DNA from: Petrosia ficiformis
Lineage: Eukaryota > Porifera > Demospongiae > Haplosclerida > Petrosiidae
Reading direction: 5' to 3'
DNA length: 64,000 nucleotides
Assembly (NCBI GenBank): GCA_947044365.1
Contig: OX345636.1
Span: forward strand, 44,269,037-44,333,036
The translations under genes and the position numbers were made by a program. This document shows positions 11,908 to 64,000 of the stretch, piece by piece (position 1 is the stretch's first letter; each line of letters begins with the position of its first letter). The notes beneath the pieces are model-generated. The model saw only the letters and a program-made list of their open reading frames with translations, was not told the DNA's origin and searched no databases.

Positions 11908-14900
11908 GTTCGAACCCGGAATTGTTGTTCAGATAGAGGATATTACATTTGAGTGATTGAATATGATTTGTATTGTAAACATGTTCATGTTCTAGTATAA
12001 CACTTTTATGAATTATTAATATCACTATAATTATGTATACAGGATATTTTTGTAGTTTACTTTGCTAAAAAGTAATAGATATGTACTTTTGGTTTAAATA
12101 CATTGTGTAATTATTATATTTGATATTATGTGACCCAATTTGTGATAACCACAGTTGTCTTCAAATGCTTGCTATAAAGCCATTTTACATGTAAGTCAAG
12201 TAACTTGATGTGTATGCATGAGTTTGAAGGTTCATGTATATACAATGTACATGTAAGTGTTTGCTCAGAGTCTAACATAAATATTTTCTTGAGGGAGCAT
12301 GCCTCCAGACCCCTCTAGTTGGCCATGTGCTTATGTACATGGATGGGAACTTTGCCCTCCTTTATTTTCGGCAAATACCTGATTTGCCCCCAGCAACGTT
12401 TATAAAATTAATGCAGCACAGGGAGGGGATTGGATCCTAAGACACTTCTCCTCTGTATGAAACCCTGATTGATTTGTTACATTATTACATATGCATATAC
12501 AGGATATTACATTTGAGTGATTGAATATGATTTGTATTGTATACATGTTCATGTTCCAGTATAACACTTTTATGAATTATTAATATCACTATGTGTTAAC
12601 AGGATGTTTGTATGGCCCGTAGATTGCTTTCCCACAGTTTTGATGTATGTTTATATATATTCTTGTGTCACTTACGTGAGTATGTGTTGTATGCGTAGTT
12701 AAGGAAGTTGTGTCATTCTGGGTGTCTCGGTCAATTAATGGCCATGGTGCATAATAGAACACGCACTCGAGCTCTGCAGACCAGCAGAAAGAAAGCTACT
12801 TGTAACTTACTTAGAAATTGGAACTAATAGCTAGCTATTCTAACTGAAATATATTCCTAAAGTTCCACAAGGTCCGTAAGGAGAGTAGATAATCAAAATA
12901 ATAACTATAATAGGCTGTTGTATTTCAGTCAGGCGTGATAAAGTCAGCCATGACTACTGAATGCTGGACACCACAAAGCAGTCATAGGGATACTTTTTCT
13001 CTATACATGTATATATCTTGTTTTTTTTTTTTTTACCACACATGTGGTTTCAATGACATGTTTATATTTGTAGGAACACTTGATCGATGTGTGGATGGAG
13101 AGAGAGCTCAAATTATTTTAGAAAACACGATCTCTGTTACCAAACCTCTTTCAACATCTAGTTCTTCACCTGTACAGGTATATGCATACATGTATTTGTA
13201 ATCATGTTTGTGTGTCTGTCTGTGCATGTTGATATTAGTGATGCACCAATATCAATTGATAATCAGTGTTGGTCACTATCGGCTAGTATCAGTATTTTGC
13301 AGTTATTTCTGAAAGAGTAACTGATATTGTAATAAGTGTACTAAATGTTCATTTCTTGTGATTATGACATCATCAATTCCTTTATGATGCTCATCATTAT
13401 TGAAAAAATACTCATTTTCATTGACATGCAGAATATCAGAAAACAGAAGGTACATGTACATGTTGTAACAGAGTTTTTGATACGTTTTGATGCATGGGCC
13501 AAATTGGCTCAACAATGATTAGTGTGTGTGCCATTTGGAATACATCTTGAGCCAATTAACAATTACAACATGTACTATTGTTGTTAGTGACAATATAATC
13601 ATAATTAACTGTGTCACTGGCCCAATAAGAGAACTGTGCAGTGCCAAATAAGAAGCTCTTTGGGCCGCCACTGGTGCGCCATATGAGCTTATCAAAAACA
13701 CTGTGTTGTAATACTGTTTGATCAGTATCAATTATTAGTACACATTTCAAGTAATTATGGGTTTATTGGAATATCAGTAAAATCTCTTATCACTACTTAA
13801 TATACAGGTATATAATAGTTGTACAGTAAATAGCTTAGTGAATAATACATGTATAATGGAAAATCTAAGGAACGTTACGTGTACATGTACATATCAGCTA
13901 CTGATAAACAGCAGCAAGAAAGAACTAGTAGATAAATGCAATTTATATTGTCTACATTGTACATTGTTTGATTTCACTACATTTTACCTGTAAGTTCTTG
14001 CTACATGTTTTTCCAACATCCCATATCAGGGTTTTATGCAGGATTTTTGGGTGGAAGGCTGGAAGCATAGGTCATTAATTATTTATTAGTCTTGACCATA
14101 TGCTAAAATGTAAGGGGGGGGGGGGGGGGGGGTATGGGATGGGAGTTGCATTATTTCAAGAGATACTGATGCATGTATCTTCCTTTTATCTATAGGTTCG
14201 TAGCCTTTCTTTTGGGAGAAACCATTCACTTGTCCAGGTCATCCTTTTTGATCCTCAAGTCCTCATCAACAAGCTACAAAAAATGGAACGGGCGGAATCC
14301 AAACATCGTCCAGTTCAGCATCCTAGTCAAGTGAGGGCATTCCGAACTTACATATCAGCTAGAAGCAAATACTCTATAACTGGTGTAGATACTCAGACTG
14401 GAATGTCTCCACCTACAAATAGGTACATATATAACTGGTGTAGATACTCGGACTGGAATGTCTCCACCTACAAATAGGTACATATATAACTGGTGTAGAT
14501 ACTCAGACTGGAATGTCTCCACCTACAAATAGGTACATATATAACTGGTGTAGATACTCAGACTGGAATGTCCCCACCTACAAATAGGTACATATATAAC
14601 TGGTGTAGATACTCAGACTGGAATGTCTCCACCTACAAATAGGTACATATATAACTGGTGTAGATACTCAGTCTGGAATGTCTCCACCTACAAATAGGTA
14701 CATATATAACTGGTGTAGATACTCAGACTGGAATGTCTCCACCTACAAATAGGTACATATATAACTGGTGTAGATACTCAGACTGGAATGTCTCCACCTA
14801 CAAATAGGTACATATATAACTGGTGTAGATACTCAGACTGGAATGTCTCCACCTACAAATAGGTACATATATAACTGGTGTAGATACTCAGACTGGAATG

Positions 14901-17900
14901 TCTTCACCTACTAATAGGTACATATATATCTGGTGTAGATACTCAGACTATATATGTATATAACTGGCTATGGGAAAACCAGGTTTATGGCTCACAATAT
15001 TTTTTTTAACGTTTGCATTTAAATGCTTACTATTTGATCATTTTCTACAGGAATTAAGACGACTACATTTTTTAAAAGCAACTATTTTTTTTCTTTTAAA
15101 TATCAAGTTTAGTCTGGTTCCTGTATAAATGACCAAATAATGATTTAAGTCAAAATTATCATAATCTTTAATCCTGATTTTCTCATAGCCATTCATATGC
15201 ATGTACATGTACACATGTACATGCGGAAGGTGTATGTTTGTTTGTATTACAGTAATATTGCCCATTTGACCATTTTGTATACATCTAATTAAATACTTCA
15301 TTTAGGGGAGGAGCTACCTTCCAATACAATATTTAGTTAGTTTGCAATGTGAAATTGCTGAACAAGTAAAAATTTACATTTGATGACAATTTGTTTACGT
15401 TATTGTTAAACAAACTTCCCTTTATCATGTTCAATCTGTATAGTGTATTGCAATGTACATGTACACATGTATGTGTATATACATACATGTATGTATATGT
15501 ACATGTATATGACTGGAATATCTTAAAATTATAATTATTACTGTGTAGTACATTGTAATTTTAATGATAACACATACACAGAAATATACATTGTACATAC
15601 ATGAATGTAAATGTACATATATATACATTTATATTCTTATATTATTTGTATTATGTGATTGCATCTTCATATAAGAAATCACAAAATAATGTTGTTATTT
15701 ATAATTATATGTTATAACAGACATTTATAGTAGATGTATAGCAATATTATTAGTAATCTGTGGTTTGTACAGTGGTGTACTGTTTTGATTGTAATGGTGT
15801 TCATGATGTTTCAACCAACAAACCAATTTTGTTTTAACCAATAGACCACTGTGCATGTTACAAAAGCTCTTTCTCAATTGCAATGTTCTCCATCTTTTGA
15901 CAGCAAACGGGGCAAACAAAACGACCCCACTACATGTTAGCACCAGCTACACTTGCAATTATGAACATTTGGAGAATAGTATTAGCTAGCTATTTGTCAA
16001 ATTGTCATTTGACGTACTTACTGTCGAGTTGTTTGATTCTTCATCGCCAGCTTTGACGACCTCATTCTAATTCCACATGGTTTTGCTCATGCGCAGTAGA
16101 TATTAATTATTCAGCACATGGGCGTTGATAATGGCAACACAAACCTCTCTCTTCGAGTTCTTTGGAGAATCTGGGCCTTCTTGTTCTGTGGATGACAGTC
16201 AAGACATAAGAGAACCTGAGTCTGAATATGAAATAAATGTAGAGAATGCCCAGATTCTCGTAAAAGGTCCAGGAGATCATTCTGCTAGTCCTGGCTAAAA
16301 ACATTTGTTTGGTTACAATACAATGAGTCTACTGAACATATGTACTGTACATTCAGCAGCCAAAGCCAATGGCAAACAGAATAAAGACTAAATTAAAGAA
16401 TCGTTTATAAGTATGTAGTGTTGAGATGGTACTTTACGTTTCAATTTAGGGACCACCTCTTCAACAGTTTAATTTTTTGAGAGCTTTGGAAATTTATAAA
16501 CATAAAGGATAACAAGATATTTAACAAATGATTGATTATATGATGTTCATTTCATACAAGTGTATTGAAAATTTTCTTTTAAATTGAGACTTCTATTATT
16601 GCTGTGACTCCTACTGTAGGTTGTAGGTAGTCAAACTGACTGGCTTTGATATTCCTACATACTATTCCATTTTTATGGCCCGTAGGGCCATCCCTATGAT
16701 TGCTTTCCCACGGGTTCGATGTATGTTTATATATATATTATATATATGTTTGTGTCACCTACGCGAGTATGGGTTGTATACGTAGTTAAGGAAGTTACAT
16801 CATTCCCGGGGGCTCGGTCAATTAATGGGCGTGGCGCGTAAAAGAACGCGCGATCAAGCTCTACACACCAGCAGAAAGAAAGCTGTTGAGCTTACGTAGA
16901 AACTGTAACTAATAGCTAGCTATTCTGCCTGAAATATATTGCTAAAGTTCTACAAGGTCCTTTGAAAGGTCAGGAGAGTAGATAATCAAAATAATAACTA
17001 TAATAAGCTGTTGTCTTTCATGCTTGATAAAGTCAGCCATGATTACTGAATTCTGGACACCACAAAGCAGTCATAAGGATACTTTTATCTTCACTTAAAT
17101 TTGTAAAGCAATCATAGGGATGTTTTTTTCTCTATATACACTTGTTTAAAATGCTTTTTTTATTATTCTTTATCTGTATATGATAACAGCCTTTGTGGAT
17201 ATGGTTCCTCATCATAGAATACATGTGTAGATAAACAATTATCAACTTACTCTTGTGAAGGTTTTAAGAGGCCATTTAAGATGTATTGTATTGAGGCCAT
17301 GTAACAGTATTGTCTATCATGTGATACAAAAGAGGTTATTCTTAACTAATAATTCTGTAAATTAGTTAGTGAATGTAATCATCATTTACATGTACCTATC
17401 TACATGTACAATGTATTATAATTAATATATTTATGAAGTATATTACAGTATACTAGTAATGCAATAGTTCATATACCTTCTTCTATATCATACCAAATGA
17501 AACAAACGATCACACAAAGACACTGTTTAGTTAGTCACATCTTATTGTTATAGATTCTTGGGAGTATGCTTTTATAACCATCCGTTTATGGGTGTGTTAA
17601 TTTTAACTACAATATGATCCATGTACATATTTACATACTAGTATAATTAAAGAAAGTGTACAATTTGACAACCCATTAGATTACTATTCCTGTGACTTGC
17701 TTTGTTTATTATGTAATGATAATTAATATCATGGTCTACTGAAACCAGTCTTATGACTTCAAAATTTTACAATCACAAAATTAATTTTATAATAATGAAT
17801 GAAAACATACATGTACATGTAATAACGAGCAAACTCTTTTTTATATTAACTTTAAAGAAGTTGAAAAGTATTACTTAGTACACACCACACAGGTAATTAC

Positions 17901-56714: not shown

Positions 56715-57545
56715 GCAATAAGTGACATAGTTACTTTTTAGCAAGGCAACTAAGTATTGGATATGCTATACTATTATAGCCTTTCTTAATTACTTCTTCA
56801 CTGTGAACAGCTGCTAAGTAGCCATATAGTTCTTGATATGCAGTTCTTGTCTTGTTGGTAATGTGACTTTTGTCCATAAAGGAAAGAGCTTCCTCCTTTT
56901 GGATGGAGACACAGATTCAATGTCACCTTCAGATTGAGCAATAACAGGTGTATCAGGATTGCTATCCATATCTGCCCTCTTTTCTTCTTCGCATTATTGA
57001 TTTCTGAAACAGAGGAAGTCCATGATGGTTTAAATTCTGGATCAAGGACAGTTGCTATGATGAAAATTAAATCTGATTTGATTGCACTGAGTCTTGCCAT
57101 GAGGTTTCCTTTGAGAAAGTGTACTAGGTTCTGTAAGTGCCAAACGCTAGTGGTCTCAATGTGCTTCTGTAGGCCAATAAAACAAGGAAGTGCTACACAT
57201 ACAGATGCATATGTGTCACCTTGTACAAGTTTAGTTGCTTCTTTAAATTAATACTTGGACTAGCTCTTGTAAAACTGCTTTATCAGTTAGTGACAAATGC
57301 AAATCCTTCTTACTTACAGTGCCATTAATACCGTCAACCTGACAATAGAAGCATTACCATCATTAATTGTGAGTTCCATCGGGTGTCATTTTTTGCAATC
57401 AGTTGACTTCCGACATCTGCAACTATTTTGCGTGCCTTTGACAAAAAATGTTGCAGTTGTCTGCAACCCTTGATTCCATCACTGACATACAACTGTAAAG
57501 TGTGTACAAAACAACTGATAGTATCAGTTGTTTTGTACATACTTT
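56715..57545 (-). pseudogene. hAT transposase relic
   Basis: Minus-strand order: ISCFVHTLQLYVSDGIKGC and LIAKNDTRWNSQLMM (57334-57540), LVQGDTYASVCVALPCFIGL (about 57170-57240), LMARLSAIKSDLIFIIATVL followed by DPEFKPSW (57000-57100). The tail is YPILSCLAKK (about 56715-56745). HTLQL, TRWNS and the LDPxFK-like motif are classic hAT catalytic-core landmarks. Stops and frameshifts separate the blocks and the final dimerisation motif is missing. Confidence 0.75.
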
Positions 57546-57850
57546 CATCTCATTTCATCTTCATCTCCCACTCATCAGTAATAAGTGGCAGGTCACACCC
57601 AAATAGCTATGCATACGTCTGTTGCTCCCTATAACTAATGTAATATACTACAGCTATTCAATTTTAGAGCAAAGGCATCATGTGTGATTACAATAATAAC
57701 ATTTTTATAATTATAATGGCATCATGGGTTATTAATGTCAATTTTTGCATGTATCACAAAACCACTTTGAATGTGATTTTATAACATTCTCTGATACAGA
57801 AACACAAAGATCTATGTGAAACCACTCTTTGCAGGTATTGCAAATGATCA

Positions 57851-58530
57851 TCACACATCCAGGAATTTGTGATTGTCGACAATTACAACAAACTTCAACT
57901 GAGTGAGCAAATTTGACTTTCCGAATTCCTCTGTCAGAAAGAGATGAAGTTTGCCAGGTTCCAGACAGTGAAAAAGGTGATCCCTCATTTTTTTCTGGTT
58001 ATATAAAAAAGTACTAGGGTTCTCTTCATGAACAAGTGCAGTAGCATTTGCTAGTGCAAAAATATCACAATCTAAAAATTTTAAACTGTCCTGCATTTGA
58101 CAATCCATGTGGAACAAGATTATAAAGTTTATAATATAAAACAGGGTAGTATGAATAGCTACAATGACAACATTTAGTTCATTGTACTAAATGTTTTGAT
58201 ATAATTACTCACAGAAGGTTGATTTGTGATAACGGTGTTGCCAATAGTGCAGCAATTTGTGTTTACAAATCTTGTATTACAGTAGGAGGTAGACTATCGA
58301 AAATGTCAACATTACCTGGGCAGCATCCTATTGTTGAGATTGTAAGCCAGTGGCCTTGACCTGTATGCAGCACCTGGACAAATTCAGCTGGCTCTACACA
58401 AAATGCCAGGGTTCTACCCAAAACAACTGATTGGAGGCCAGGAACTACTTCAAACTGTCTTTTCAACAATTCCTGTCAAGTCTGTCATTGAGCAGGTCTG
58501 TTCCTGTAAGACTTTTTTGATCCATTAATG
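57851..58530 (-). pseudogene. Ulp1-like cysteine protease (C48) relic, probably of Ginger-type element
   Basis: Exon 58263-58490 encodes LLKRQFEVVPGLQSVVLG and VLHTGQGHWLTISTIGC, then NVDIFDSLP (His and Asp of the triad). Exon 57851-58117 encodes SLKFLDCDIFALANATALVH (candidate catalytic Cys in the DC motif) and KKMRDHLFHCLEPGKLHLF. A one-base shift before QELLKRQF breaks the frame. It lies directly 3' of an integrase C-terminus, as in Ginger elements, which are described as carrying Ulp1 proteases. Confidence 0.6.
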
Positions 58531-58594: not shown

Positions 58595-59305
58595 TTAGAT
58601 CCATGTGATGTGAATACATGTGATTCTTGCCCTGACGCTTAGGGAAGGACATACGAATTTACTAATGTAATCATTGGAACTACTAGCCGCAGCAGAAGAA
58701 TGATGCAAGATGTTGTTGGAGTTCACTAAATTTGTTGTAGAAGATGATGTTGAATGAACAATTGGTGTTTCATATAACTTAAGATGAGCTCCATTCACTC
58801 TTTTCATAACCACATTGTCTATAATATAATACATAGATGGAAATACTTCTGTCAATAAGAACCCAAACATTATTTTACCTATATGTTTCAGGTTATAGAA
58901 AGCTTTCCCGACTTATCACGTATGGCCCAAGCCACTTATAGTCTAATTTTCCTCCTTTTCTCTTGAAGTCTTCCTTCAGAACCTTTGTGTCAACCTGTAT
59001 TGAATTATTTTATTACCTATCACACAATAAATCCACAACATATCTTAAAAGTAACCAGAGTAGCATGTTTCCTGTCATACAGTAACTGCTCTTTTTGTTT
59101 AATCTGGGCTTTCTTTACATTTTCCCTTACTTCCTTAAAAAACATACAGTCATTCTGTTGTAAGTGTATCAATAGCTTCTTGCATATCAACAGAAACATC
59201 AAGATCTGGTCTTGGTTGTTTATCATCTAAGTCTACTAGCAAAACTGGCTTTCTGCCAAACATCACCTCAAAAGGTGAATGAATACAGGGAGGACTCGTG
59301 ACTCA
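58595..59305 (-). pseudogene. Ginger-like (KRBA2-type) integrase C-terminus, degenerate
   Basis: Minus-strand pieces: HSPFEVMFGRKPVLLVDLDD (about 59230-59300), FKEVRENVKKAQIKQKEQLL (about 59080-59140), KVLKEDFKRKGGKLDYKWLG then PYVISRE (about 58900-58970), and VMKRVNGAHLKLYETP (about 58760-58810). These match the end of the integrase core and the GPY/F module of Ginger/Gypsy-type integrases. The pieces are in different frames with stops, so it is inactive. Confidence 0.6.
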
Positions 59306-59309
59306 ATTG

Positions 59310-60050
59310 AAGTTAGCCCCACATACATTCAGCCCCGCATTCTTGAAGTTTTGAAGTTAACCACAAAAATTTTCCTGCTAAATATCTGGCAACCTGCAGC
59401 CTCTCATTCAAAATTTATAACAATACCCGCTACTCATATTTATAAAGGTAGGTTTTATAAATTATTGCTGCATCTAACAAGGTATATCTAATTCTGTATT
59501 CTAACTGGCTCCAATGCTTTGGCTTCACATCATCCCAGTAGTTGGCTGTGCTCTAACATACTTATTATATATATATTGAGTAGATATTCCTGTTAATACA
59601 AAATTACAAGCAACCTGCTACACAACATTAAACAATTCCGCTGGTGTCAAAGAAACTATTTAAGACGTCAAGGAGTTTCCAAGTAATAAATTGTTCTTTA
59701 TTAAAAACCAGAATAGACAAAGAATGTTATAAAGATAACTTGTTTGTAATTTTATGCATTGTATATATGACAGAATGAACAGATCAAAAACGAACAATTG
59801 TGTAAAAATAATAATTATGCTGTGGGTGAACATCGGAATAACAGGCACACTGGATAACTACTGTATTGCTGACCAGTATGAGAGCAGATAAAGACATTGT
59901 CATAATATTATTATAATAAAAATATATTACATAAATATGTGTTTATACAGCATACAGATATAAGTAATTTAATGAATTATATTTTTATAGAATTACTAAT
60001 GCAGAGATGTCACCATCAACATTAGCTAGCCTGTAAGTAAATAATTATAT
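59310..60050. other. Intergenic, nothing recognised
   Basis: AT-rich. A short minus-strand stretch at about 59990-60035 could be a terminal exon remnant (LANVDGDISALVIL) but is too short to assign. Confidence 0.35.
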
Positions 60051-60059
60051 GTAAATTGT

Positions 60060-61232
60060 ACTGATCACAATACACACTAATGGTCTAACTTAAAAATATT
60101 TGTAAGTGACTGATACTATTATTAAAGTGATTTTCCTATTCATATGTATGCTAGGTATATATCCAAAAGTCACTTGGGTTTAGTTGTTACTATGTTAGTT
60201 CAATGGCGAATTCAAATTTAACGAACACCCATTCAATGATCACGATATACACTGATGATCTATCTTAAATCGCTATACTTGTGAGTAACTGATACTATTA
60301 TTAAAGTGATTTTCATATTCACATGTATGTTAGGGATCTAAAAGTCACTTGGATTTAGTTGTTACTGTGTTAGTTCAATGTTGAATTCAAATTTAAGGAA
60401 CACCCATTCAATGATCACGATATACACTGATGGTCTATCTTAAATCGCTATACTTGTGGGTAACTGATACTATTATTAAAGTGATTTTCATATTCACATG
60501 TATGTTAGGGATCTAAAGGTCACTTGCATTTAGTTGTTACTATGTTAGTTCAATGGCGAATTCAAATTTAAGGAACACCCATTCAATGATCACGATATAC
60601 ACTGATGGTCTATCTTAAATCGCTATACTTGTGGGTAACTGATACTATTATTAAAGTGATTTTCATATTCATATGTATGTTAGGGATCTAAAAGTCACTT
60701 GGATTTAGTTTTTACTATGTTAGTTCAATGGCGAATTCAAATTTAAGGAACACCCATTCAATGATCACGATATACACTGATGGTCTATCTTAAATCGCTA
60801 TACTTGTGGGTAACTGATACTATTATTAAAGTGATTTTCATATTCATATGTATGTTAGGGATCCAAAAGTCACTTGGATTTAGTTGTTACTATGTTAGTT
60901 CAATGGCGAATTCAAATTTAAGGAACACCCATTCAATGATCACGATATACACTGATGGTCTATCTTAAATCACTATACTTGTGGGTAACTGATACTATTA
61001 TTAAAGTGATTTTCATATTCATATGTATGTTAGGGATCTAAAAGTCACTGGGATTTAGTTGTTACTATGTTAGTTCAATGGCGAATTCAAATTTAAGGAA
61101 CACCTATTCAGTGATCACGATATACACTGATGGTCTATCTTAAATCGCTATACTTGTGGGTAACTGATACTATTATTAAAGTGATTTTCATATTCATATG
61201 TATGTTAGGGATCTAAAAGTCACTTGGATCTC
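60060..61232. repeat. 175-bp satellite, about 6.7 copies
   Basis: GTGATTTTC recurs at 60127, 60306, 60481, 60656, 60831, 61006 and 61181. The first interval is 179 bp, all others exactly 175. Copies 3-7 are nearly identical. The right edge lies at AAAAGTCACTTGGATC, where the last exon of the adjacent protease gene begins. Confidence 0.95.
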
Positions 61233-63951
61233 GTATCTCCAATGACATCTTCTAAGTGTTGCATATCTTCTTTGTATGCTTTCCTGACATAAGTAATACC
61301 TATACAAAATGCAGAGATACAAATTCATAATAAAATTATTGTATATAAATTAGTGGTTATATACCATATCCAGTTCACAGTAGTGGGAGATTCATTGTGT
61401 AGATGATCTATGTAGTAGATGATCTGATCATCCATGCCTATCACCTGTATATAATAACCATGATGATTAATATTATTGCACACAATCTCTGAACTTACAA
61501 CAAGGACCCAATGTGATGACAAATGCACTGGAAAGAGCAGGTATTCCATGGAAAATATATCGACATGCTATGCAAAGCAAACATAGAATTTATAAAGTGA
61601 TTGAATGACTTGAATGGGTTACCTTTGTGAATTTTTGAACAGCTGGTAACCATTTGCTTTTAGTTTGAGTAAAAACACAGGATCAAAACAATGCATTTTT
61701 GTTTTATTCTGTTGACAAAAAATAATATTCTTTACACGATGTGTACACAACAACACACTTTTAATTCAGTACAAAGTAGATGGAGATACTTCACAATAGC
61801 CTATTATGGAAGTATTAGTTAATTTACAAATGAGTGATTCCAAGCAAACCTCAGATAAAAGCCTGGTTGTTCCTCTGAATGACTGCAAGTGGATGTCTGA
61901 GTTACTCTCAACCAAGTCATTCCATACCTAAATGAAAAATGCAGCAATGCAATGAGATTTACAAGTATACCTTAGTTGTGCAGTGTAATCCAAATGTCTC
62001 ACACTGTGCATGAATTGTGAAGATTATATATAATATATATAATACTAAATAATAATTATTTACTGGAGGCAATCTTGGAGAGAGTGGTGGTGGCCATCCA
62101 GCTAATGGCTTCAAAAACACCTAATCAATACACTCACTATAATTATAAAGTACCAATGTCTACAACAAAACCATAGTGTATACATTTACCTTTGAATCTG
62201 GTGATGTGTACACTGCTATTGCCACGTTTGTCTGCAATTGAAAGGTAAAGATATCATTAATGCTTTTGCTGACATCATACAAGTACATACTGCAACATAT
62301 TCATCCAGGTGATATTCTGCATTCTCGTATGTGACACTTGAATCGTTATAATGGATCCAACATTCATTATCCCATACCAGAGATGTATCTGTTAATCCAA
62401 TTAGATGTAATATTTTAATTTATTTTTGCAAAACTATTTACAATGTCCAGAGTTAGTCCCACCTCTGGTCCCACCATGATGAATCTGATGAAGTTCAAAG
62501 ACGTAAAAACACAATATAAAGTCTATAGTTTTGTCTTACAATAATAGAGGCCAATGTGTACGACATTATACTTGAATCATGAAGACTTGCAGAAAAGTAT
62601 CTTGAAATGCAATGCGAATATGTTGTTATCAACATCATGTGTAATACATTCTTACAAACCTTTCCAAGATTACTCCACACTTTGATGGCATGGCACCTCC
62701 AACACAACAAAAGCACATGAGTAATGTATCAGGTAGTTTGATCAGCTTGCCAGATACAGATAAACGTTTAGTACAAATTCCACAGGCACTGCACAAACAT
62801 TTGGCAAATACTATTACATTTCATTTATTTATTACATTACATTACCTTTTGCAACTTAACAATCCCTCAGATGTTGTCGAACTAAGAAATTGTGAATACA
62901 ACTCAGACACAGTGCTTGATTTCACTTGTATGGTCATATTCATTTCACAGTGATAATGTGTAACAACTTCTTGCTTAACCTTTTTTTGAAAAAGAGATTA
63001 ATATAATGGATAATAATAAATAATCACTTACAAAGTTACAATCTGAACAAATTCCTGTTCTTTCAATTAAAATGGAAGTTAGCTGATCATCATTGTCCTT
63101 TACAAAATTGAATTCAATAACAAGATAAAAGTCTGCATGAATATAAGATCTCCAAGTTGTTGCACAATATTAGCAATCCTTCTGCAGCATCATTTTGCAA
63201 AGCCATGTTCATAGAAGTGATCCCTTGCTGTGGAATGCAAAGCACATTAAGGAAAGAAACAAAAATACAATTTACCAGAAGAGTTGATGCATCACCAATC
63301 TTTCCTTTTTGTAAGCGACAATGTAATTCAAGGTAATCCTGTTGCATCTTATTCAATGGAATTCCTGTTGAGCGTGACATGCATGTTGAATATAAAATGA
63401 GGTCAATAGTGTAAGTTTACCTTGTAGAAAAAGTGGCAGTCTAGTGCATTCCAGGGTTGAATGACTAAGTTACCCCAACAATACTTCAAACATTTATTAG
63501 AAAGGCCCCTATTTGGCAGCTTTCTCAAGATTATAGGCAACGATGTAATATCCTAGACAAAGCATTTTGTGACATAGGATTGTGTATAATATCATATTTA
63601 ATATTTACCTCAGTTTTCTGACTAGTTGCTCTTTAGCAAAATTGATAAATGAACAGCAAAAATGTTTATAAGTGCCACATACCTGCTGCTTTTAATGATT
63701 ACACAATTCAAAACTGGGTCCATTTTGTCTACTTCATCTTGCTCTGGGGTGCTATTATAGTGAATGCATATAGGGAATTACTGTGTGCATGCATGTTCGA
63801 ATTCATTTGTAGTATAACCATACTTTAAAATTTTGAAGTTTTTTAATGGTGGTTGCTGATAAACTCCACGATTAGTAAAAGGTAACTTCCTCTTCTTAGG
63901 TCTCCTTGCCCACTCTTTCTTCAATGGTTTGTTCGGTTTATTCAAGGTTCT
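61232..63951 (-). pseudogene. USP/UCH ubiquitin protease joined to Ulp1-like protease, many exons, truncated
   Basis: Minus-strand exons: 63824-63951, 63683-63751, 63609-63630, 63421-63552 (Cys box GLSNKCLKYCWGNLVIQ), 63276-63364, 63032-63227 (LQNDAAEGLLIL; CSDC), 62846-62979, 62660-62788 (CKSACGICTKRL; LPDTLLM), 62540-62600, 62442-62484 (HHGGTRGGTNSGH), 62291-62388 (ECWIHYNDSSV), 62190-62231 (AIAVYTSPDS), 62064-62120 and 61850-61927. The last are about 61621-61710, 61499-61567 (YLLFPVHLSSHWVLV), 61365-61444 (IIYYIDHLHNES) and 61232-61307. The first fourteen form a UCH domain with Cys, zinc-ribbon and His boxes. The last four form the front of a Ulp1 fold with His and Asp but no Cys, lost at the satellite. 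Most junctions are in phase. Breaks occur near 63421/63364, 63140 and 61621/61567. More exons lie upstream of the window. Confidence 0.6.
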
Positions 63952-64000
63952 CTGCAAAAAAATTGATTATTATATACCATAACTAAAGTAAGGAAACACT

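Follow-up and report, generated by a model that had tools for sequence, protein, structure and literature searches.

A broken copy of a probable Rehavkus-like transposon in the sponge Petrosia ficiformis and its predicted transposase with ubiquitin-specific and SENP-type protease domains

We analysed a stretch of 64,000 nucleotides from the sponge Petrosia ficiformis (the window; assembly GCA_947044365.1, contig OX345636.1, G000:C1:44269037-44333036 of the forward strand). At its end the minus strand carries part of a gene for a ubiquitin-specific protease (USP) domain and a Ulp1/SENP domain, and this gene continues past the window edge. We found that the gene piece very probably belongs to a transposon. 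With a probability of roughly three in four, it comes from a broken copy of an element that is Rehavkus-like, belongs to the Mutator superfamily and encodes a single predicted protein, which combines a PHD finger, a WRKY-like zinc-binding region, a DDE-type transposase core, a USP domain and a SENP-type Ulp1 domain.

A DNA search of the region against the animal's own genome (a 191.2-Mb assembly in 29 contigs) returned 33 matches; at 10 places, one of them in the window, the match spans at least 2,660 of the 2,769 bases, with 96-100% identity. Eight of these 10 copies were compared together with their flanks. Allowing up to two mismatches, both ends could be located in four copies (c11, c2, c1_19 and c1_22b), which are 9.8-12.6 kb long; in the remaining four, one terminus is absent, has diverged too far or lies beyond the stretch compared. 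The length differences are largely due to minisatellite length and internal deletions. Elements of the Mutator superfamily have terminal repeats and target-site duplications of 8-11 bp. Copies c11, c2 and c1_19 lie between perfect 9-bp direct target-site duplications (three of the four copies with both ends; none was seen at c1_22b), and c11 ends in a terminal inverted repeat of 24 bp (92% identity in an ungapped-style BLAST comparison). Groups with duplications of 8-11 bp are listed in PMC6446971. Over the region, the Kimura two-parameter distance is 0.0014 between c11 and c2, and 0.0132-0.0150 between the window copy and the nine others, and therefore points to a recent burst of copies and to a window copy that is older. 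We also noted that an inverted partial copy of the 5′ part of the element, with its own terminal motif, precedes c11 head to head (L024:7349-8655).

In c11, 35 predicted GT-AG exons join into one open frame of 1,493 residues, in which a PHD finger, a putative DDE-type transposase core, USP and Ulp1 follow in this order; the start codon of the model is a guess and one exon has only 13 nt. The introns are 43-82 bp long throughout, and the phases agree from the transposase to Ulp1. The PHD finger (PF00628) scored 31.2 bits on the spliced piece and 24.3 bits on the 942-residue N-terminal part (cut-off 24), and the WRKY-like region probably lies between it and the DDE core. No Pfam family matched the transposase core, and Pfam listed no integrase family in the N-terminal part at E ≤ 1, the H2C2 finger and GPY/F motifs of Ginger1 not having been sought. 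A search with the transposase exon gave 52 relatives; the cores, 32-53% identical, come from many public assemblies. As far as Pfam goes, the core thus appears to represent an undescribed, widespread family.

Behind the Ulp1 exons of copy c1_4 (L030), ten further GT-AG exons give 254 residues without a stop, which were not joined to the 1,493-residue frame. The same ten-exon splice in c1_22b lacks two exons and has three stops. The c1_4 piece had nothing above Pfam cut-offs and nothing among PDB sequences; it is possibly a C-terminal domain of unknown kind or a second transposon protein. A further Ulp1-like domain after the first, suggested by eye from a SENP-like 'CKFA' stretch with the Cys replaced, was left out for want of support from Pfam or PDB sequences.

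The identity of the two protease domains was confirmed by sequence comparison: the exons encode a predicted USP (UCH) domain followed by a predicted Ulp1/SENP domain. In the protein spliced from the close copies, UCH (profile 8-241 of 254) reached 42.0 bits at E 1.1e-10, and Peptidase_C48 (profile 2-177 of 217) reached 57.2 bits at E 2.7e-15, both above the Pfam cut-offs, as the profile search proposed in the first-pass annotation was meant to establish. The Ulp1 part aligned to SENP1 over chain residues 39-225 of 226 (E 3.1e-27) and to SENP2 over most of the chain (E 2e-25). Those positions aligned with SENP1 that we take to be the catalytic His, Asp, Gln and Cys are all in place. The USP part matched USP28 weakly (E 0.0049). 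Chance similarity, or noise of the hidden Markov models, was rejected because of the Pfam scores and the SENP1 alignment.

In searches beyond the genome, neither the 1,493-residue protein nor the USP-Ulp1 protein had a match at E ≤ 0.001 among 5.8 billion proteins, Foldseek gave no match at E ≤ 0.001, and a scan of viral contigs gave 62 pattern matches with no relative among them. Within the genome, profile searches found 136 UCH and 11 C48 places. By eye, without computation, none was apparent just behind matches to the transposase exon, where short exons fall below the thresholds. Four of the UCH matches have near-equal scores and profile range 197-251 (C1:46347853, C17:1349815, C1:57785548 and C2:10659277) and may represent a further repeat family with a piece of USP.

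An apparent fusion of two deconjugating proteases could also be read as a host gene, an animal dual deconjugase, and active-site residues are present in both domains. This reading, raised in the first-pass annotation as a sponge-specific enzyme, is unsupported and in our view very improbable; every relative seen was either a transposon copy or a relic. Ten near-identical copies are dispersed in the genome, the window copy is broken, and a diverged cluster at C2:15.45-15.48 Mb, with 67-89% nucleotide identity in the matching pieces and with remnants of USP and Ulp1 in unchanged order, consists of relics with stops, which also removes it as a host source of the proteases. A host dual deconjugase was rejected as the main explanation, given copies that lie between inverted repeats and duplications and that encode a transposase as part of the same open frame. 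The other suggestion of that annotation, a piece of a transposon-encoded polyprotein, has gained strong support from the near-identical dispersed copies, the inverted repeats, the 9-bp duplications and the transposase core in one frame with the proteases.

The copy in the window is a broken copy of the transposon gene. Its exon borders, derived from GT-AG sites and phases by comparing copies, and the other features of the element are as follows (all on the minus strand, except the minisatellite, which has no strand).

59301..64000: portion of the transposon copy inside the window (eight copies compared; location of the 3′ terminal motif)
59301..59324: 3′ terminal inverted repeat, 24 bp (3′ terminal motif at 59301, 1 mismatch)
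60062..61229: minisatellite before the 3′ end, 175-bp unit, 6.7 copies (Tandem Repeats Finder and copy comparison)
61230..61232: deletion junction at which the last Ulp1 exon abuts the minisatellite (W 9769/9772 against copies c11 and c1_4)
63951-63824, 63751-63683, 63621-63609 (13 nt, uncertain): three exons between transposase and USP (copy comparison, splice model)
63552-63421, 63364-63276, 63227-63150, 63097-63032, 62979-62846: USP/UCH part, exons 1-5
62788-62660, 62600-62540, 62484-62442, 62388-62291, 62231-62190: USP/UCH part, exons 6-10
63552-63421; 62484-62442; 62388-62291: USP landmarks, being the Cys box, the GH of the His box, and the end of the His box with WIHYND, respectively
62120-62064, 62003-61971: linker, two exons
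61927-61850, 61800-61759, 61708-61623, 61567-61499, 61444-61365, 61299-61232 (cut): Ulp1/SENP part, six exons
61567-61499; 61444-61365: Ulp1 landmarks, the His exon and the Asp exon, respectively

The minus-strand exons with UCH and Ulp1 landmarks, as first annotated, are thus present at 63951-61232. They number 21 rather than fourteen, the last one cut: 3 before the USP, 10 in the USP, 2 in the linker and 6 in Ulp1. They were also described as running in phase, which does not hold for this copy: single bases present in all nine other copies are deleted at 63457, just after the USP Cys box, and at 61644, in the Ulp1 part, and the spliced copy has 20 stops. The claim that UCH and Ulp1 belong to one gene accordingly stands for the family, since 4 of the 10 copies run through 19 exons without a stop, and falls for the copy in the window with its interrupted frame. 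Neither border of the annotated gene is a true end. At 63951 an internal exon starts, and the gene begins outside the window; 61232 is a deletion junction into the minisatellite, so that the window copy lacks the exon with the Gln and Cys of Ulp1 and everything after it, whereas other copies continue with that exon. The minisatellite recurs in the other copies compared, with differing copy numbers. Upstream, the window copy extends to about G000:C1:44336706 (3.7 kb past the window), where the 5′ terminal part is missing.

The association of transposase and USP is old, as far as divergence between families can tell. The transposase exon had 92 matches in the genome, some at 45-62% identity, and a single divergent family (C9:1513800; 45% identity, four near-equal stop-free copies) was followed downstream over a 2.5-kb stretch that ends before any Ulp1 region. 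It contains ERTSGAVEGW and nine USP exons, which splice into 314 residues without a stop and score 76.3 bits for UCH. The USPs of the two families are 32% identical (BLAST), and C26, H245, N260, D261 and the four zinc-ribbon Cys are identical in both. Seven of the eight USP introns of this family lie at the same alignment column and phase in the first family, which has nine. Because a transposase only 45% identical precedes the same USP, with 7 of 8 introns shared, the two have travelled together through a deep divergence.

This bears on whether the proteases could be captured fragments of host genes, carried as passengers in the manner of Pack-MULEs and without a role in transposition. Capture of Ulp1 by plant Mutator-like elements (MULEs) is described in PMC13317346, and the Ulp1 part here is strikingly close to SENP1, as a later capture would leave it. 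Passengers would be expected to decay, whereas the USP has kept its active-site residues and zinc-ribbon Cys behind the diverged transposase; this conservation and the open frame shared by proteases and transposase make the passenger explanation unlikely. It is about equally improbable that USP and Ulp1, or the transposase and the proteases, are made independently, each from its own transcript or splice form. Two-gene Ginger and MULE elements have been published (PMC2836005 and PMC6446971), but the introns of the c11 model are so short that hardly any space is left between domains for a promoter or terminator, and their phases agree from transposase to Ulp1. Two observations weigh against a single protein with functional proteases, which we nevertheless prefer. 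Among the eight young copies there is no sign of constraint on the exons (variation in 17 of 1,399 exon columns and 8 of 998 intron columns), as would suit passengers; and the 13-nt exon and the guessed start codon allow other splice forms, as would suit separate proteins.

The element is most readily likened to Rehavkus, by architecture rather than by transposase sequence. Rehavkus elements, described from arthropods and annelids, have a 9-bp duplication, inverted repeats of 26-400 bp and one open reading frame; they also encode a PHD finger and have a minisatellite ahead of the 3′ repeat (PMC6446971). The sponge element shares the 9-bp duplication, the PHD finger with the transposase and the minisatellite before the 3′ terminal repeat, and the single frame predicted in c11 up to the Ulp1 end would agree as well; its length of 9.8-12.6 kb and 175-bp unit compare with the 9.5 kb and 164-bp repeat unit of Rehavkus-1_TC of Tribolium (PMC10218199). 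Its terminal repeat, 24 bp in c11, comes close to the published range but stays just below it. In contrast, its host is a sponge, and it adds USP and Ulp1; the words peptidase, Ulp1 and ubiquitin do not occur in the main text of PMC6446971.

Mutator (MULE) elements with Ulp1 are known from hydra, lancelet and plants (PMC2836005; PMC13317346) and are similar in being Mutator-type transposons that encode this domain. They differ in that the accessible text does not mention a USP for them and that the plant Ulp1 lies in a gene separate from the transposase. A figure legend of PMC2836005 places PHD beside Ulp1 in Ginger1 and Mutator transposases. In Ginger1 the transposase has a C-terminal Ulp1 or OTU protease, in one case with a PHD finger; however, that transposase is of the integrase type and of another superfamily, the elements are 2.6-7.1 kb long, and the protease is given as OTU or Ulp1, without USP (PMC2836005). 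XP_001314237.1 of Trichomonas is cited in the same paper as transposase_11 with Peptidase C19 and so combines a USP-type protease with a DNA transposase; it belongs to another transposase family (pfam01609) and another kingdom, and Ulp1 is not mentioned for it in the part available. SENP1 and SENP2 resemble the Ulp1 part over most of the chain, whereas here the domain makes up the C-terminal part of a protein with a transposase. Ulp1 and USP carried by transposons have each been published. Among the titles and abstracts covered, which left out Repbase, most subscription papers and preprints, no description of a transposase with USP plus Ulp1 was found, a negative that does not establish the combination as unpublished.

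Several further stretches of the window were noted. Another PHD finger (PF00628, 25.3 bits, cut-off 24), which looks unrelated to the first, lies on the minus strand at 57741-57998, 1.3 kb downstream of the transposon 3′ end, and an open stretch at 58266-58475, also minus, contains 'HTGQGHWLTIS', Ulp1-like by eye, with no Pfam listing. The minus-strand open stretches 56801-57247 and 57337-57549 resemble pieces of a hAT transposase by eye; in Pfam, the former reached only 12.2 bits to hAT-like_RNase-H, far below the cut-off, and the latter had nothing similar. A tandem array occupies 14375-14949 (55-bp unit, 10.5 copies, 98% matches).

From its anatomy, the DDE core would cut and paste the element, and the PHD finger might guide the transposase on chromatin. 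The attached deubiquitinase and deSUMOylase could then have as substrates the transposase or proteins at the donor or target site; they might spare the transposase ubiquitin-dependent turnover and SUMO-dependent silencing, or help in repair. Such a protective role of the proteases is a tentative proposal. We hold equally tentatively that the protein may be a self-stabilising, anti-silencing transposase, which would remove ubiquitin and SUMO alike, either from itself or from the chromatin proteins of donor and target sites, and of which the proteases would be lasting parts. A role of such proteases in transposition or subsequent repair was proposed in the 2010 Ginger paper, whose discussion left their function open (PMC2836005). 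In plant elements, VANC genes with Ulp1 are reported to bring about hypomethylation of elements related to their own, according to a 2026 review that gives the function of Ulp1 itself as unknown (PMC13317346).

The sponge element illustrates that a transposon could be annotated as an 'animal dual deconjugase'. With USP and SENP domains kept in one protein with a transposase, and with copies that have moved recently, the question of what proteases do in transposons would become testable; a self-stabilising transposase, if true, would be an animal counterpart of transposon-encoded anti-silencing.
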